NCBI GenBank assembly: GCA_028289245.1 | Contig: JAQGGT010000006.1 | Coordinates: 270,948 to 334,947 of the forward strand | DNA from: Candidatus Saccharimonadota bacterium | Lineage (GTDB): Bacteria; Patescibacteriota; Saccharimonadia; Saccharimonadales; UBA4665 | Direction of reading: 5' to 3' | Length of the DNA: 64,000 bases | Position numbers and translations under genes: made by a program | Shown: positions 26,556-38,301 of the stretch, piece after piece | Position numbering within the stretch: the stretch's first letter is position 1 | How the letters are laid out: every line of letters begins with the position of its first letter | Notes under the pieces: generated by a model | What the model was told of the DNA's origin: nothing | What the model saw: the letters and a program-made list of their open reading frames with translations, nothing else | Database searches by the model: none

Positions 26556-27833
<1,278 letters not shown>

Positions 27834-27835
27834 AT

Positions 27836-28867
27836 TTACAGAGGTAGTAATTCGGGCTCTTGCTGGAGGGTAATGCCGAACTTGGCCTGGACTGCGGTGA
27901 TGATCTTTTGCTTGAACGCGAGCAGGGCAGTAGTATTTGCTGCTGCTTCGTTGACCAGTACCAGTGGTTGGGTTGGCCAGGTGGCTACACCAGTTTCGCT
28001 ATCGTGGTAGTCTTTGAAGCCTGTTTGCTCGATGAGCCATGCCGCCGAAACTTTGATGTCGGCATCGTGCTTCCAGTGCGGGATCTCAGTGTCCAAATCG
28101 GCGCTCAGCTGGTTAAATTGGCCGGAGCTGATAATTGGATTGGCAAAAAATGAGCCGCAGTTGGCTACCACGGCCGGATCGGGTAGCTTGGCACTGCGAA
28201 TTGCGATTACTGCCTGGCGCAAGGTGGCCGGTGTAACTTCAGTGATGTTGTGCTCGCGTAAATAGTTGCCCACGGCTGGATAGTAGGGGCCTTCCGGATT
28301 GCCAATGGTGAGATGAAAGGTAACGGCTGTAATAAAAAAGCGGCCGCGGTCGGTAGCCTTGAAGCGGCTCGTACGGTAACCAAAACCGCAGTCGTAGGCC
28401 GGGAGGGTAATAAAATCGCGGGCCGCCGTGTCGTAAGCTTCGATGGTGGTTAGTGTTTGCGATACATCTTGGCCATAGGCACCGACATTTTGAATCGGTG
28501 TGGCACCAGCCGTGCCCGGTACCAGGCTAAGCGCTTCGATGCCCGTTAGACCGGCCTGGACGCTGCGCTCGACTACTGAATCCCACGGCTCGCCGGCCCC
28601 GACAGTCAAATAGACGTTCGTCTCATCCTCTTTAAACAATTCGTAGCGCAAAATTTTGTTGACGATTAGCAGGCCAGAGAAGCCTTCATCCTTCCAAACA
28701 ATGTTGCTGCCACTGCCAATCATCTGGACGGGCAGGTTGCGTTGCTGGGCCCAGCTGAGGGCCTCGAGGACTTCCATACGGTCGGTAGCTTCACAGTAAT
28801 AGCGGGTCGTGCCGCCCAGGCGCATGGTAGAGTGGGCCCGCAAGTCGACGTTTTCAAGAATATTCAT
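27836..28867 (-). CDS. murB: UDP-N-acetylenolpyruvoylglucosamine reductase
   Basis: A 343-residue FAD enzyme with the type I MurB layout: NTM-like start HSTMRLGG, FAD-binding MIGSGSNIVWKDEGFSGLLI (about 49-68), the GIEALSLVPGTAGATPIQNVGAYGQ segment, and the C-terminal NCGSFFANPI and AAWLIEQTGFK motifs. It makes UDP-MurNAc for peptidoglycan. TATAAT (minus, 28879-28874) ends 6 bases before the ATG, so it is probably leaderless. It is divergent from the HTH gene at 28929. Confidence 0.95.
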   Translation of the reverse strand: MNILENVDLRAHSTMRLGGTTRYYCEATDRMEVLEALSWAQQRNLPVQMIGSGSNIVWKDEGFSGLLIVNKILRYELFKEDETNVYLTVGAGEPWDSVVERSVQAGLTGIEALSLVPGTAGATPIQNVGAYGQDVSQTLTTIEAYDTAARDFITLPAYDCGFGYRTSRFKATDRGRFFITAVTFHLTIGNPEGPYYPAVGNYLREHNITEVTPATLRQAVIAIRSAKLPDPAVVANCGSFFANPIISSGQFNQLSADLDTEIPHWKHDADIKVSAAWLIEQTGFKDYHDSETGVATWPTQPLVLVNEAAANTTALLAFKQKIITAVQAKFGITLQQEPELLPL

Positions 28868-28928
28868 CTCATCATTATAGCGCCTGCTTACGCTTGCACC
28901 ACCACCTGCCTCGCGGTACTATTGTGGT

Positions 28929-29489
28929 ATGAGAGAGCCAGCAGATAATATTCCATTTAAACCTTTGGGCGTCCACCTCAAATATTTGCGTGAGCAGGCC
29001 CACCAAAGCCTATCCGAGGTCTCCGGTGCCGTGGAGATTGATGAGGTGGCTTTGGCGCGGATCGAGGACGGGCTGGAACGCCCGGCCGAAGAAGTGCTGT
29101 TGTTATTGATTAGCTACTTCGGTATGAAAGACCAAGAAGCAGTGCAGCTATGGGAATTAGCCGGCTACAACGGCGATGTGCCGGAGCAACTGCGGCCCAC
29201 CGATGAACTAATTGCTGGTAAGAACATTGTCATGCTGCTGGCCATGGATATGCGCACCGTCTACACCGACAATCTCGAAGTAACCACCAACAATGCCGGC
29301 GTCACCCTTAACTTTGCGCAAACTACCGGCCCCGACAAAACTTCGCCAGTTGCCCGCCTCGGAATGAGTTACGAACAGGCCAATGCGGTGATTAAAACCT
29401 TGCAACAGGCGCTGCTTCGCGCCAAGTATCAAGACGGCCCGTCGCTGCTACCACCCAATATCTCGCCCGATAGCCAAGGCGACGCCTAG
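28929..29489 (+). CDS. XRE-type HTH protein with DUF3467-like domain
   Basis: A 186-residue protein. Residues about 12-65 form an XRE helix-turn-helix (LKYLREQAHQSLSEVSGAVEIDEVALARIEDG). The C-terminal part (VYTDNLEVTTNNAGVTLNFAQ...PVARLGMSYEQANAVIKTLQQAL, about 108-160) follows the pattern of DUF3467 proteins. This combination is unusual. TACTAT (28917-28922) ends 6 bases before the ATG, so translation is probably leaderless. It is likely cotranscribed with the YdjM-like gene 26 bases downstream. Confidence 0.68.
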   Translation: MREPADNIPFKPLGVHLKYLREQAHQSLSEVSGAVEIDEVALARIEDGLERPAEEVLLLLISYFGMKDQEAVQLWELAGYNGDVPEQLRPTDELIAGKNIVMLLAMDMRTVYTDNLEVTTNNAGVTLNFAQTTGPDKTSPVARLGMSYEQANAVIKTLQQALLRAKYQDGPSLLPPNISPDSQGDA

Positions 29490-29515
29490 CACGTGAAAAC
29501 CAGGGTGGCTGCCGG

Positions 29516-30094
29516 ATGACCGGTCGTACGCATGATGCGGCGGCTTTTGTGGCACTCAGTGTAGTGGCACTTAGCCAGCCGTTAGTGCCAGTGACACTAC
29601 CAACTTTACTGCTGGCATTGCTGGCCAACCAAATTGGTGGTATAGCCCCAGACATCGACCAGCCGACGGCGCCATTTTGGCGGAACTTACCGGTGGGCCG
29701 GGTGTTTGGCCGGGCTTTTGGATTACTCAGCGGCGGCCACCGCTTCATCACCCACTCGCTGCTCGGGTTGGCGCTGGCGGGAGTAGCGGTCGATGCCTTA
29801 TTACACGCCTTACACCCGATTATGCCCAATGTTAATCTCGGCTACGTCTGGTGGTCCTTTATGATTGGCATGCTATCGCACCTGGTAATGGATAGTATTA
29901 CGCGCGAAGGAGTGCCCTGGTTGCTACCGATTCCGATAAAGTTTGGTTTCCCACCCGTTAAGCGCTTGCGGGTGGTTACCGGTAAAAAGTTTGAGATTTT
30001 TATCATTTTCCCTGGGATTATACTGATTGGTGCTCTGTTTTATGCCACCCATTACGCTGCGGCTGTTCACTTTCTGCACCATTCGGTGGTGTGA
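29516..30094 (+). CDS. YdjM-like (DUF457) metal-dependent membrane hydrolase
   Basis: A 192-residue integral membrane protein with the family's conserved His/Asp pattern: MTGRTHDAAAF at the start, GGIAPDIDQP (about 41-50), GHRFITHSLLG (about 74-84) and SHLVMDSITREGVPWLLP (about 120-137). These are possible metal ligands near the membrane; E. coli YdjM is a LexA-regulated member. Substrate unknown. There is no ribosome binding site, so it may be translated by coupling to the preceding gene. Confidence 0.82.
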   Translation: MTGRTHDAAAFVALSVVALSQPLVPVTLPTLLLALLANQIGGIAPDIDQPTAPFWRNLPVGRVFGRAFGLLSGGHRFITHSLLGLALAGVAVDALLHALHPIMPNVNLGYVWWSFMIGMLSHLVMDSITREGVPWLLPIPIKFGFPPVKRLRVVTGKKFEIFIIFPGIILIGALFYATHYAAAVHFLHHSVV

Positions 30095-30454: not shown

Positions 30455-30544
30455 AGCTTTAAAAGTATGCAAAATCACAAAATATTTGCATCTATATAAG
30501 TTTGATTTCAGAAAAATTTAATTTTTGTACTATACAATATCTTC

Positions 30545-31759
30545 ATGAGCATTGCAGCAGGGGCCTTTGAATCTCGCCTCCCACCTGGTTCAGCAGCCTT
30601 ATTTGCTGAATTTGGTGCCCAAGCCGAAGCTCCACCTAACGGTGACCCAACCATTGGAAGCTTTCATGCCGCGGCCCAAGAAAGTTATGCCACTAACCAG
30701 GGTTTTCGTAATCTTATAAACCGTTATGTGTCACTGGAAACAGTTGATAACGCTTCGTATCAGGCAAATAAGGTTTTTAAAGCTGCTCATAGCCTCTACA
30801 TGCCCTTTAAGGTTCGCACCGCCACCGGCTATCCATATGGCTATGACGAACTAACCTGGATGCACGATATCACCGCCAACCTCTCGGATGCGCGTAGCCC
30901 ACAATCTATCGAAATGCGCGCAAATTTACGCCGCCCGTTGCAGACCAGTCGAGATAAACGGGCGATCGTGCTATCGTTCCTGGCAGGCGCTTTATCGCAG
31001 GAACGGGAGTTTGAAGGCGGCTTAACAGTGCACGATTATGGCTCGTCGAGTAACCATGTGCTGAAGTCGCTCGCCTTACGGCACCCCAACTACGCAAAAA
31101 TTGTTGATGCCCAGGGACATTACGATAAGTCGGCGACCAGAATATTTAATATGTTTAGCGGTTTTTATAAGAGCGGGCGGGGCTTGATGCGCGGTTACGG
31201 TATTGAGGCTCAGCCGCCAACCAATAATCCACGGGCCCAGAACTGGCTCAAAAGTTGTTCGCTCGATCCATCGCAGCTCGACCCACCGCGTGAGCAGGTG
31301 GCTGGCGTGAAGGAGTTTAATGATGAAGATACCTATGAGTTACTTACCGAAGCTCGGCCGCCCCAAGTCCACACTATCCGTGGCAATTTCCTAAATCTGA
31401 GTCCCGAGCATCATCATAAGCTGGCCAGCAATAAAGCTGACCTGGCCTTTTTCTCACATGTTTTATCGCAGAACGCGCCACACATCAGCACTATTAGTAA
31501 AAATACAATGCCATTGCTCAAGCGGCGGGGCATGATCGTGGTTAACGAGTACGCCGAAGTTCCGCCCGATAACCCGCAGACGTTGAATATTTTGGACGAC
31601 TGGTATGCCTCCAAATGGCTTTGCCAGACGTTTGTTCTCAGTAAGGCCTCACCTGAACTGGGCTTTTTACCGATCATCCGCTGGGAATCGTCACACTGTG
31701 AGGTCGGACAGATCGTTGAAGAAAACATCAGCCATATCGCGCCTGATCTTGCCGCCTAG
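30545..31759 (+). CDS. Divergent methyltransferase-like protein, paralogue A
   Basis: A 404-residue soluble protein. The segment LTVHDYGSSSNHVLKSLALRHP (160-181) sits like a class I methyltransferase motif I, followed by WLKSCSLDPSQL (234-245), a strand HTIRGNFLNL, then LAFFSHVLSQ and RRGMIVVNEYAE, the order of later Rossmann strands. Both marked segments recur in the protein at 34174, so they are homologues. Glycines of motif I are mostly replaced by Ser, so SAM binding is uncertain. TACAAT (30533-30538) ends 6 bases before the ATG (leaderless). Confidence 0.6.
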   Translation: MSIAAGAFESRLPPGSAALFAEFGAQAEAPPNGDPTIGSFHAAAQESYATNQGFRNLINRYVSLETVDNASYQANKVFKAAHSLYMPFKVRTATGYPYGYDELTWMHDITANLSDARSPQSIEMRANLRRPLQTSRDKRAIVLSFLAGALSQEREFEGGLTVHDYGSSSNHVLKSLALRHPNYAKIVDAQGHYDKSATRIFNMFSGFYKSGRGLMRGYGIEAQPPTNNPRAQNWLKSCSLDPSQLDPPREQVAGVKEFNDEDTYELLTEARPPQVHTIRGNFLNLSPEHHHKLASNKADLAFFSHVLSQNAPHISTISKNTMPLLKRRGMIVVNEYAEVPPDNPQTLNILDDWYASKWLCQTFVLSKASPELGFLPIIRWESSHCEVGQIVEENISHIAPDLAA

Positions 31760-31792
31760 GTTCAGGCCCTAATCTGTAATACAATAAGGCTA

Positions 31793-32467
31793 ATGAAGCT
31801 AAACCGATTATTGGCCCTCTTACAAAATGGTGATACCGAAAAATACACGGCCGGCCAGGTATTTTATGCTCTCGACTTCAAAGAAGAACTCTACATCGTC
31901 CAGTCTGGCTACGTAAAGCGCTACTCGGTGAATGAAGACAATATTAAAGTTATCGAATCAATTTACGGCCCAGGTTACTTCTTCCCGCTGTCGACGGTCT
32001 ACAAAAAGTTGCTTAATTTTGACCTCAGCCAGGAGAGTAGCACCTACGTGTATCAGGCCATGACTGACTTAGAGATTCAAGGTGTGAGCAGCGATAAGCT
32101 AAAGGTAGCGGTTGATAAGGATCCGGGACTCTACGCCGACCTGTTTTTTGAAGCCGGCCGGCGGCTAGAAGCCAACATTAACCGGTTGGCTAGTAATGCG
32201 CTGCGCAGTGATTATAAAAAGGTGGCTCACCAGCTGGTATATCTCGGCGAGGAATTTGGCCAGGTCGGCCACCGGAATGTTAAAACCGGGCTAAAAATAC
32301 TAGTGCCGCTAGAGCCGGTTGACATGGCCGAACAGCTAAATATCGATATTGATACGGTTGATTCAATTATGGCAAAACTCGAGCAGCAAAAACTGATTGT
32401 TAGCAAACAAAACACTATCTATATTCCGGACATGGACCTACTCAAAGACGCCTATTTGCGGGGCTAG
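31793..32467 (+). CDS. Crp/Fnr-family transcription regulator
   Basis: A 224-residue protein with an N-terminal cyclic-nucleotide-type beta-barrel (about 15-110, FYALDFKEELYIVQSGYVKRYSV) and a C-terminal winged helix (about 150-220, PVDMAEQLNIDIDTVDSIMAKLEQQKLIV). No cysteine cluster is present, so an Fnr iron-sulphur sensor is unlikely; the cAMP-contact residues are not conserved. TACAAT (31780-31785) ends 7 bases before the ATG. The ligand and targets are unknown. Confidence 0.82.
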   Translation: MKLNRLLALLQNGDTEKYTAGQVFYALDFKEELYIVQSGYVKRYSVNEDNIKVIESIYGPGYFFPLSTVYKKLLNFDLSQESSTYVYQAMTDLEIQGVSSDKLKVAVDKDPGLYADLFFEAGRRLEANINRLASNALRSDYKKVAHQLVYLGEEFGQVGHRNVKTGLKILVPLEPVDMAEQLNIDIDTVDSIMAKLEQQKLIVSKQNTIYIPDMDLLKDAYLRG

Positions 32468-33222
32468 CGGCGGCGCTGCACTCGAGCTAAATTTGCCAGA
32501 TAGAGTAGCAGCTGTCCCAGCTCAGCCGGCTTGGCCAGCTGCGGTGTGTGACCGGTAGGAAACTCCAGCAGGGCGTTTGGGCCGAGCCACTCTTCCGAAA
32601 CCAACCGAGCGCGATCTAGATTAAGCGCCCGGTCTTGGGTGCCCAGCATGAACCAGGTCGGTATTTCTTGCGGCATTGGCGGCAGCTCGGCTTCGCGCTG
32701 GCAGGGAATGCGTTGTTTGCGTAAGCCGCGCACGGCCAGCTCGGTGAGCGTTTGACTGACGTCGGCGTAGAACACCTTACGGGCAGTTTGCGGATCATAA
32801 ATTTGGAAGAGACCATCAGCGGTAGTAGTAATGCCAGAGCGGAATTCATCAGTATTCCGCTGTAGTTTACCGTACTGAGATGGTATGTTGAGCTCAAAAT
32901 CGCGCGGACCGCCGCTGCAGAGTACTAGCGCGCCGACCACGCGCGCTAAATCGAGTTGGTCGAGCACTCGCGGCAGTGTTTCTACTCCCCGAGAGTGAAC
33001 TACTAGGAATAGGTTTTCGCGGTCAGCAATTGAGTCCCTGACGGCGGCCGTGTCGTCATCAAAGGTGGCTCCGGGGTCTTCGGCGGGAAGTTCCGGAGCA
33101 ATAGTTTTTTGACCGGCTGTAGTGAGCTCGGCTTGCAGTGGCTGCCAGTGACTACTGCCATGCCAGGCGCCATGAATTAACACAAATGTGTAGGTCTCCT
33201 CGACGGAGGTAAATTGTTCCAT
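32464..33222 (-). CDS. Alpha/beta hydrolase
   Basis: About 252 residues. FVLIHGAWHGSSHWQPL carries the oxyanion HG motif, VVHSRGVETLP the nucleophile elbow with Ser, and the C-terminus FPTGHTPQLAKPAEL the catalytic His. This resembles the salicylate-esterase/YdeN-like branch. I prefer the ATG at 33222; an in-frame GTG at 33231 is possible. A perfect extended -10 TGCTATAAT lies at 33282-33274 on the minus strand, about 52 bases upstream. It overlaps the Crp-like gene's stop by four bases. Confidence 0.83.
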   Translation of the reverse strand: MEQFTSVEETYTFVLIHGAWHGSSHWQPLQAELTTAGQKTIAPELPAEDPGATFDDDTAAVRDSIADRENLFLVVHSRGVETLPRVLDQLDLARVVGALVLCSGGPRDFELNIPSQYGKLQRNTDEFRSGITTTADGLFQIYDPQTARKVFYADVSQTLTELAVRGLRKQRIPCQREAELPPMPQEIPTWFMLGTQDRALNLDRARLVSEEWLGPNALLEFPTGHTPQLAKPAELGQLLLYLANLARVQRRR

Positions 33223-33359
33223 TGCGGTCACTCGCCATTCCGTATTTGTGAAGTTTTATGAATCTACCGCATTATTATAGCAATCTTACAAGATGAACTA
33301 TATGCAAAATTTGGGTAGGTCTGATACAACACTCTTGAAGGTGTATACTGCAAGTATCT

Positions 33360-34001
33360 ATGAAGCGCACGCATGCTGCTATTACGGCTCGATCTCGTCT
33401 CGGATTCTGTGTGCTGTTTGGGGCGGTAGTCGCAGTTGTGTTGGTGGCGCTGGGTCAGCACGAGCTCGCGCCGCTCGTTGGTTGGGATGTAGCAGCCAGC
33501 TTATTTGTGCTGTCCGTGATGACGGGTGTTACGCCATTTACGCCAGCCCAAACCAAAGACCACGCCTTAGGCGAAAATCCGGGGCGTAAAACCGGTGACA
33601 TTTTGCTATTGTTTGCCAGCTTTGCGAGCTTACTGGCCGTCGGCTTGTTGGTTTTGCGGGCTGGGAACGCGCAGGGTGGCCAGAAGCTGCTCGATATTGC
33701 CCTCGGCCTAGTGAGCGTGATTGCTTCCTGGTGCGTGGTGCATACCATGTACATGCTAACCTACGCCCGGTTGTACTATGGGACGCCGGAAGGCGGCATT
33801 GATTTTAACGGGGACAAGCCTAGCTACAGCGATTTTGCCTATGTAGCATTTACGCTTGGTATGACCTTTCAGGTCTCCGATACGGCGCTGCAGAGCCGTC
33901 AGGTCCGCAGCACGGTTTTACGCCACACGCTACTGTCCTACGTCTTTAGTACAGTGATTATTGCCAGTACGATTAACTTCGTGGTCAGCCTTAGCCAATA
34001 G
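33360..34001 (+). CDS. DUF1345 integral membrane protein
   Basis: A 213-residue protein with about five membrane helices. The C-terminal half has the family pattern YARLYYGTPEGGIDF...DFAYVAFTLGMTFQVSDTALQSRQVR and a final SYVFSTVIIASTINF. The family is widespread and uncharacterised. TATACT (33344-33349) lies 10 bases before the ATG without a ribosome binding site. Confidence 0.85.
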   Translation: MKRTHAAITARSRLGFCVLFGAVVAVVLVALGQHELAPLVGWDVAASLFVLSVMTGVTPFTPAQTKDHALGENPGRKTGDILLLFASFASLLAVGLLVLRAGNAQGGQKLLDIALGLVSVIASWCVVHTMYMLTYARLYYGTPEGGIDFNGDKPSYSDFAYVAFTLGMTFQVSDTALQSRQVRSTVLRHTLLSYVFSTVIIASTINFVVSLSQ

Positions 34002-34173
34002 TTACCAATACTATGCCCATGCTTGCACCTGGCTGTCGCGTTGCGATAATTCGCAGTCATGGAAACGCCTCAAGGCGGTAAACGCTTACAGGCTGTCTCG
34101 CCGCAGTCTGTGTTATGTGCATGTGCTGGCGCGTGCCTTCAATCACAAAGCTACGTAGCCGTATGCTCAACTC

Positions 34174-35262
34174 ATGGAGCAATCATTACGGAGTGAGCTG
34201 ACCAGCCAGATATTACAACCACCTGGTGAGGATCGTCGTATTGCGGCCTTTTGCCAAGCACTGCTTACGACTCTCCAGGCGCCGAATGAAAATGCCGAGT
34301 TGCTCGATGTGATCTATCGCATATCCGGTCACTCGCCATCATATGTCGTAAATCACGTACTGCGGGCCTTGCAACGGCAACTGCTTACCTACCAGCCGGA
34401 CTATCCGCGTGCCTTTATATCCGCCGCCGTATGGTTGGAAGCCTTACACGAGGTTGTGCAAACTCCTGCTAAATGGCGGCTGTTTAAAAGTGATCTCTGT
34501 GACAGGTCTGTACAAAGTAATGTAGTCGAGCGGTATAAAGCGATAAAACTAGCAGTTAACCTGTTGCGACCGCAGCAAGGCAGCTCGCTGGCACTGCTGG
34601 ATATTGGCTGTAGCCGCAATCATGGACTTAAAAAATTACGCCTCAACTTACCGTTTACCGAGGTAACATGTGCTGTCCAAAGCTTCGGCACCATGCCGAG
34701 CATAGTTCTCGACCGCCTGCTGAACGAAGCTCTCCAGGTGCCGCTGCAACTCAGCGCTTGCCTCGGCATGGATGTGGTACCGCTGACCTTGGGCCAAGAT
34801 GCCGCCTGGGCGAAAAGCTGTTCATTCTATCCTTCGGAGCTGCTGCAGTCGAGGGCGGTCGCTGAGTATGATTACCTCGATAGTCTACGCCTCAATGGCG
34901 TTGATTTTATCGAGGCAGATATTGCAGTGGCCGTACCACCGATTGGTACCTTTGACGTGGTGATACTCTCGACCTTTTTATACCAGCTCGAACCGGCTGC
35001 TCGCCACCGGGCCCGACAACAGGTTGCCGGCTTGTTGGCCGAGGATGGGCTCATCATCTACCAAGACTTTAGCCATACTAATGCCAGCGATAGCCAACTC
35101 GAATTTGAGGCAAATTGGTTTTCCCAATTATTTCCCTACCGCACGATTATCGAATTCGCCAGCGACCCCGGCCGGCTTTACGAACTATTTCGCTGGAATA
35201 ATGGCCGGTGCGCCGAGTGGATCCCTGGCAAGGACCTGGCGGCAGCACTGCAGAAACGCTAG
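34174..35262 (+). CDS. Divergent methyltransferase-like protein, paralogue B
   Basis: A 362-residue protein. LALLDIGCSRNHGLKKLRLNLP (139-160) is a motif-I-like segment, WAKSCSFYPSEL (212-223) a shared insert, then VDFIEADI, FDVVILSTFLYQLEP and DGLIIYQDFSH, the usual post-I, IV and V strands of class I methyltransferases. It is a clear relative of the protein at 30545. The first 130 residues are helical and of unknown role. A TATGCT box (34162-34167) ends 6 bases before the ATG. Confidence 0.62.
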   Translation: MEQSLRSELTSQILQPPGEDRRIAAFCQALLTTLQAPNENAELLDVIYRISGHSPSYVVNHVLRALQRQLLTYQPDYPRAFISAAVWLEALHEVVQTPAKWRLFKSDLCDRSVQSNVVERYKAIKLAVNLLRPQQGSSLALLDIGCSRNHGLKKLRLNLPFTEVTCAVQSFGTMPSIVLDRLLNEALQVPLQLSACLGMDVVPLTLGQDAAWAKSCSFYPSELLQSRAVAEYDYLDSLRLNGVDFIEADIAVAVPPIGTFDVVILSTFLYQLEPAARHRARQQVAGLLAEDGLIIYQDFSHTNASDSQLEFEANWFSQLFPYRTIIEFASDPGRLYELFRWNNGRCAEWIPGKDLAAALQKR

Positions 35263-37167: not shown

Positions 37168-38301
37168 ATGTCAGGTGAACCAAATCCTTCTGCGCATCCC
37201 GGTGTAACCCAAGAAATGCTCTTGGGTTACATCGACGATAGTGGTGCAGTCGAAGCGCGCTATGAAGCGCTGCGTTCAGCGGCGGCTACCAATATTATTG
37301 GCGCACTCCAGGCCGAAGATATAGAGTATGGCCGCCGCCAGGGTGAAAATAACTGGGCCTTCTTGCAAACCGTGCGCGAGCAGCTACCCGCCGCTTCGAT
37401 GTCGGCGAGAGTTGAGACTAAGAAGAACGATAATTTCAATGAGACTATGCAAAAGAAGATTTTCAATGTTGGACACATTCATGATGTTCGCTTAGGGTTC
37501 GACGTGCAGACCAATGGGCTGCCGCTGGAAGCCCTCGGGCCGCAAACCTATTTGGCCTTAGCCGCCCTCCGTGCCACCACCATTTGGCAACGTCTCCCGA
37601 TCGGCGATGCCTTGACATGTCGTGTGGCCGAATATACTAAGGCAACTTTTGAGCAGACAACACTTGCCGTACCGCATGTGCTCGCAGGAGCCCACACGCC
37701 AACTGATAGTAGTCGGAAAACTGACATTTTATTGATGCCACTGCTGCCAGCCACAAAAGCCGGTGAAGGAAGTTACTACGCTAACCGCAATTCTAAGGCT
37801 CTGCTAACGCGGCATATCGCCAAGGACTCTCTCCTCGGCGGTGCTATGCATATCTGGGGCAAACCGTACCTACTGCGAGCCCAGCTGCCGACTAGCCAGT
37901 ATACTCGCCTACTGGCCGCCCAAGACTCTTTGTTGGAGGATGGCTTGACTCCCGAAGAGATACAAGCCACTCATGATGTTACGAACGGCGGCTTCAGAAT
38001 TAATGAGAATGTACTGCCACTGGTGGGTATAGGCGGGAATAGAATTATAGCCTCGGGCCGCCGGCTTTTTACTAACCCGTTGCGGGTAGAACGACATGCA
38101 GCCTTTGATAGCTACGGCATTACCCGGATAGGTTACCAAGAAAACAGCATTGATCCTAAGCTATTCGTGGCCTATAGCGTACTGGAGCACCTGCAACGTG
38201 CGGCAGCCATGCTGGGCGCGAGCGCGCAGTTTCATGTGGCCAAAGAGGTGCTAGTTCGTACAGCTTACGCCGACCCGGCACTCAAATTACTCGAGAGCTA
38301 G
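37168..38301 (+). CDS. Hypothetical protein
   Basis: A 377-residue soluble protein with no recognised motif or membrane segment. The last two thirds look globular with regular alternation of hydrophobic and charged residues. It has a -35/-10 promoter, unlike most neighbours, and no ribosome binding site. It converges on the MMPL gene (2-base gap). Confidence 0.62.
   Translation: MSGEPNPSAHPGVTQEMLLGYIDDSGAVEARYEALRSAAATNIIGALQAEDIEYGRRQGENNWAFLQTVREQLPAASMSARVETKKNDNFNETMQKKIFNVGHIHDVRLGFDVQTNGLPLEALGPQTYLALAALRATTIWQRLPIGDALTCRVAEYTKATFEQTTLAVPHVLAGAHTPTDSSRKTDILLMPLLPATKAGEGSYYANRNSKALLTRHIAKDSLLGGAMHIWGKPYLLRAQLPTSQYTRLLAAQDSLLEDGLTPEEIQATHDVTNGGFRINENVLPLVGIGGNRIIASGRRLFTNPLRVERHAAFDSYGITRIGYQENSIDPKLFVAYSVLEHLQRAAAMLGASAQFHVAKEVLVRTAYADPALKLLES

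Follow-up and report, generated by a model that had tools for sequence, protein, structure and literature searches.

In the present study, two proteins encoded in the window (the whole stretch of 64,000 nucleotides of Saccharimonadota DNA that was analysed), P0001 and P0002, are found to be homologues of one methyltransferase family, and we propose, with a probability of about 0.6, that they are regulator-coupled DUF2332-like class I SAM-dependent methyltransferases, of which P0001 is paired with a CRP-type regulator and has an altered pocket, and P0002 is unpaired and intact-looking. The proposal draws on homology, fold class, gene linkage, partners that alternate and do not occur together, and the substitutions seen in CRP-paired members. 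The family adjoins a sensor or transcription-factor gene in related genomes, and a role in regulation is therefore suggested.

30545..31759, forward strand: P0001, 404 aa, divergent DUF2332-like class I methyltransferase, the CRP-paired copy
34174..35262, forward strand: P0002, 362 aa, DUF2332-like class I methyltransferase with complete conserved positions and no detected conserved partner

Homology and family assignment

Both reading frames exist as described in an earlier sequence-only reading, and its view that they are paralogues of one methyltransferase-like family is confirmed by BLASTP, which aligned the two proteins over nearly their full length (39 bits, E=1e-7, ~21% identity), and by a profile search. 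A family profile built from 24 relatives, from which P0001 was left out and in which P0002 was included, matched P0001 over its full length with 149 bits (E=8e-45). Among the window ORFs this profile matched P0001 and P0002 alone, and it reported nothing for 500 shuffled versions of P0001; thus, the similarity of the two proteins is above chance.

P0002 exceeds the Pfam gathering score of PF10094 (DUF2332), with 29.2 bits against a cut-off of 25, and also weakly matches several methyltransferase domains. The family is not wholly new, as both the fold and the nearest family are already known. P0001 has no Pfam match at E<=1, does not reach the DUF2332 gathering score, and is tied to DUF2332 solely via the family profile. 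Across 14 relatives, the commonest Pfam matches are DUF2332 (9 members) and Methyltransf_23 (6). Nothing relevant on DUF2332, and no assigned function, was found in the open-licence literature.

The host genome has a size of 1.22 Mb. Searches of 149 related genomes revealed relatives in 11 genomes with P0002 and in four with P0001. A search of a collection of genome contigs with P0001 found no relative, a tblastn search of plasmids and phages with P0002 found none either, and a PF10094 search of three megaplasmids gave no match. A loose plasmid search with one relative gave chance hits. A phage or defence origin of either protein was rejected, as PADLOC and PHROGs returned no meaningful match and a viral fold search gave just generic methyltransferases and similar proteins.

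Predicted structure

The AlphaFold models, each computed from a 25-row alignment, are confident for P0001 (pLDDT 86, pTM 0.87) and P0002 (pLDDT 93, pTM 0.90), and the core elements follow the same order in both: an N-terminal helical domain, strand 1, the motif I helix, an inserted helix, strand 2, the helix bearing WxKSCS, and strands 3 to 7. Taken with the Foldseek hits, these models indicate a predicted seven-strand Rossmann-like fold. Nearly all Foldseek matches in the PDB were class I methyltransferases, with CheR1 among the best by TM-score; the TM-scores are low (~0.2-0.35 by query length) because of the extra N-terminal domain and the insert. The acidic residue of motif I, the first Gly, and the acidic residue after strand 2, which are typical of class I enzymes, are present in both proteins (D143, G145 and D200 in P0002; D164, G166 and E221 in P0001). 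P0001 and P0002 are thus predicted to consist of a helical N-terminal domain followed by a class I methyltransferase core, in which SAM would be bound where the strands of the sheet have their C-terminal ends.

Genomic setting and partner genes

26556..30094: conserved flank of GlyA (+), MurB (-), HTH (+) and YdjM (+); the slot 3' of this flank was compared across genomes
31793..32467, forward strand: CRP/FNR-type regulator, 33 bp downstream of P0001
35303-36211: XRE-type HTH protein, 302 aa, whose C-terminal part is long; it lies 41 bp downstream of P0002

GlyA, MurB and the HTH gene of the flank are conserved, joined within the genus by YdjM. The slot directly after the flank is occupied by a GAF gene and a methyltransferase in three genomes (G003, G007 and G013), by P0001 here, and by unrelated genes elsewhere; P0001 therefore sits where relatives keep a GAF-paired enzyme. 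The HTH protein of the flank (28929-29489) has a weak DUF3467 match and is present in 83 of 99 relatives, so that it is apparently a core gene of the order. P0001 and the CRP gene are each preceded, about 10 bases ahead of the start codon, by a TACAAT box, TATACAAT (30530-30545) and TAATACAAT (31775-31793); this is the position expected for a -10 element when a transcript is leaderless. Neither a GAF nor a CRP gene adjoins P0002 or its relatives L007 and L008, and the XRE-type protein, a candidate partner of P0002, has no relative in the 149 genomes. Further downstream, a 377-aa protein (37168-38301) has no Pfam match.

The neighbourhoods of 21 family loci were compared. The most recurrent neighbour of the methyltransferase is a GAF-like protein of ~185 residues, and most family members of the order adjoin this stand-alone gene. 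It is adjacent in 14 loci, 12 of them tail-to-tail (nine with overlapping ends), one co-directional and one divergent; most pairs are convergent and therefore do not form one operon. In the 149 relatives, in which methyltransferases were counted by profile search inside the family and by single-sequence search outside it, the GAF gene was found in 12 of the 15 genomes with the methyltransferase versus 7 of the 134 others (p=1e-10). In the latter seven (L166-L172), the GAF-like gene has no detected methyltransferase of the P0001/P0002 family beside it. By Pfam, none of five stand-alone proteins scanned reached the GAF cut-off (best GAF_2 score 18 bits versus 28.6); the homologous kinase L083 exceeds it with 35.3 bits.

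In four more distant relatives, a GAF histidine kinase takes the place of the stand-alone gene in the cluster. These methyltransferase clusters (L083, L086, L087 and L088) also contain a gene of the HbpS-like haem-binding family, and three of the four a Sua5/YrdC-like gene; a Sua5-like gene divergently adjoins the methyltransferase in three loci of the Saccharibacteria order as well (L073, L079 and L080).

The GAF-like gene is absent from the window's genome; this genome, G046 and G056 are the only methyltransferase-positive ones of the 149 that lack it, and exactly these three carry a CRP gene beside the methyltransferase. A GAF or a CRP partner, never both, was observed across 17 loci. The regulator at 31793 exceeds the HTH_Crp_2 cut-off (34.1 bits versus 27), and its cNMP-binding match stays below the cut-off (21.7 bits versus 27.5). 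Its two closest homologues in the 149 genomes (50% and 45% identity) both adjoin a methyltransferase of the P0001/P0002 family, in G046 and G056, and the three methyltransferase-adjacent CRPs form a clade with 100/100 support.

The wider CRP clade has 12 members in 375 genomes of the order, and 10 of these adjoin some SAM-methyltransferase, nine divergently; seven of the 10 methyltransferases are of another type, with three or more types overall. Among 21 CRPs more distant than the clade members, which served as controls, one adjoins a methyltransferase-domain protein (a CheB/CheR fusion). The difference (Fisher p=7e-6) is to be read as indicative, because the limits of the clade were set by score once the results of the first search were in. 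Pfam was run on most of the larger control neighbours; of the five others with at least 150 aa, four look like an amylase, a PNPOx, a SOD and a MarR protein, and the fifth is a 187-aa protein of unknown type. A fairer test is given by the CRP members from the second search, four of five of which lie beside a methyltransferase. Within the clade (L160-L163, L206-L210), the exceptions L162 and L210 form one sub-clade; L210 adjoins a DUF308 gene, and L162 lies near HSP20 and a similar DUF308-like gene.

These observations might also be explained if P0001 and P0002 were plain accessory methyltransferases, e.g. for a secondary metabolite or a surface glycan, in a variable slot, with regulators that control their expression or co-travel in small cassettes and do not sense the methylated product. 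The patchy occurrence of the family, the unrelated genes found in the slot of other genomes, and the pairing of the CRP clade with unrelated methyltransferase types are consistent with this explanation. However, the link to GAF holds across methyltransferases that are ~16-35% identical and belong to different families and genomic places, and the conserved positions vary with the type of partner. We regard the accessory explanation as possible, although we rather doubt it.

Conserved positions and partner-specific substitutions

31034..31078, forward strand: motif I block of P0001, DYGSSSNHVLKSLAL (residues 164-178); D164 and G166 are the conserved Asp and Gly of the family
31244..31279, forward strand: P0001 WLKSCSLDPSQL (residues 234-245); Gln replaces the near-invariant Glu
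34600..34644, forward strand: motif I block of P0002, DIGCSRNHGLKKLRL (residues 143-157)
34807..34842, forward strand: P0002 WAKSCSFYPSEL (residues 212-223), in the helix between strands 2 and 3; E222 is near-invariant and C216 is not

The motif-I-like block shared by P0001 and P0002 is real, and 8 of the 12 residues of the WxKSCSxxPSxL block are indeed identical; the distance between the two blocks, given before as 62-64 residues, is 70 residues from start to start in P0001 and 69 in P0002. Conservation was counted over 25 family sequences in P0002 numbering. R120 and G145 are invariant (25/25), D143 and D200 are found in 24, E222 and R345 in 23, and D249 in 21 of the 25. P0002 keeps all of these residues; P0001 has Glu for D200, Gln for E222, Asn for D249 and His for R345. 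The proposal that activity may have changed is thus in line with P0001, where many conserved positions are altered, and not with P0002. The glycine-rich loop had been considered replaced; the G-S loop (DxGCSxxxG) is in fact the family norm, with the Asp and the first Gly retained, so that this loop alone is no argument against the binding of SAM.

In class I methyltransferases, the strand ends are where SAM and the substrate bind. By secondary structure, D143, D200, D249, T267, D298 and Y322, all kept by P0002, are located at or near strand ends, and from the fold class they may belong to the SAM- or substrate-binding region. T267, Y270, D298, F299 and Y322 are missing from all three CRP-paired members, P0001, L061 (G056) and L063 (G046), whereas almost every member that is GAF-paired, kinase-linked or without a partner retains these residues or shows a conservative change. 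The grouping of the three CRP-paired methyltransferases as one clade was weakly rejected (p=0.023). The placement of P0001 in a wider group including GAF-paired members (p=0.44) and a sister relationship of P0001 and P0002 (p=0.175) were not rejected. These topology tests are soft because of long branches.

In P0001, the substitutions might instead reflect decay after duplication, with P0001 being a decaying or non-catalytic binding protein and P0002 carrying the activity. P0001 is alone in departing at D200, E222 and R345 together (L030 departs at E222 and R345 only), and its branch is one of the longest. Nevertheless, the frame is intact and full-length, the model is confident, the motif I Asp and Gly are kept, the change from Asp to Glu at strand 2 is conservative, and the CRP neighbour is conserved along with P0001; decay or loss of catalysis is thus unlikely.

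E222 and R345 change jointly in P0001 and L030 and are retained in the other sequences; from these two cases, one of them a very diverged sequence, the two residues may act as a pair. The Cys-Ser of WxKSCSxxPSxL was proposed earlier as an invariant functional site, and might be taken to define the family through a catalytic or redox function. It is identical in P0001 and P0002, and 16 of the 25 members have the Cys, among them every unpaired and every GAF-kinase-linked one, but the Cys is missing or shifted in the other nine, two of the three CRP-paired members among them, so that it is not invariant and such a role is highly improbable. Within the WxKSCSxxPSEL segment, the alignment points to the Glu, probably acting with R345, as more important than the Cys.

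Proposed mechanism

Herein, we describe how a regulator-coupled methyltransferase might work. In most relatives, the methyltransferase would act together with the stand-alone GAF-like protein; in the window's genome, G046 and G056, where GAF is absent, the CRP/FNR-type regulator beside the methyltransferase might take this place. The enzyme would bind SAM and methylate either a protein or a small molecule; the regulator would sense the methylated product or its precursor, or else control the expression of the enzyme. P0001, with a changed pocket, would be part of a CRP circuit, and P0002 would have retained the ancestral site, without a detected partner.

A broader and more tentative hypothesis, against which we judge the odds to stand, is that of modular signalling in Saccharibacteria and their kin, in which a dedicated SAM-methyltransferase is combined with an interchangeable sensor (GAF, GAF histidine kinase or CRP), the regulator reads a methylated small molecule that the enzyme makes, and the site of P0001 has been re-tuned to CRP. 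Through the GAF-or-CRP pairing, the DUF2332-like family gains a functional handle, and methyl transfer may be a signalling route in ultra-small epibiotic bacteria; the CRP-methyltransferase linkage is open to direct test.

Comparison with known systems

In the open-licence literature, searches for CRP or GAF with a methyltransferase in Saccharibacteria or Patescibacteria returned nothing relevant, and neither the partner pattern nor the CRP-methyltransferase linkage was found there. Four known systems offer points of comparison. First, residues 106-296 of P0002 align to positions 98-293 of the 334 in the DUF2332 profile, and members that exceed the cut-off are also present in two further genomes of the genus; in contrast, P0001 has no direct match, and by profile comparison the family stands at the edge of DUF2332. 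Second, the family shares with class I SAM-dependent methyltransferases the strand order, the motif I Asp and Gly, and the acidic residue after strand 2, and its Foldseek and profile hits are almost all methyltransferases, whereas its N-terminal helical domain, the insert between the motif I helix and strand 2, and the third loop residue, usually Ser, are different. CheR1 likewise has an N-terminal helical domain; Pfam CheR is weakly matched by 2 of 14 members (best E=0.0054), and by neither P0001 nor P0002. Third, BLASTP comparisons group the GAF-like partner with the N-terminal domains of GAF-HisKA-HATPase histidine kinases from the corresponding loci of distant relatives, but it stands alone, at ~185 aa, without the kinase part and with no Pfam match over cut-off. 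Fourth, the protein at 31793 carries the HTH_Crp_2 domain of CRP/FNR regulators and differs from them in its sub-threshold cNMP-binding match and in belonging to a clade that is genomically tied to SAM-methyltransferases.
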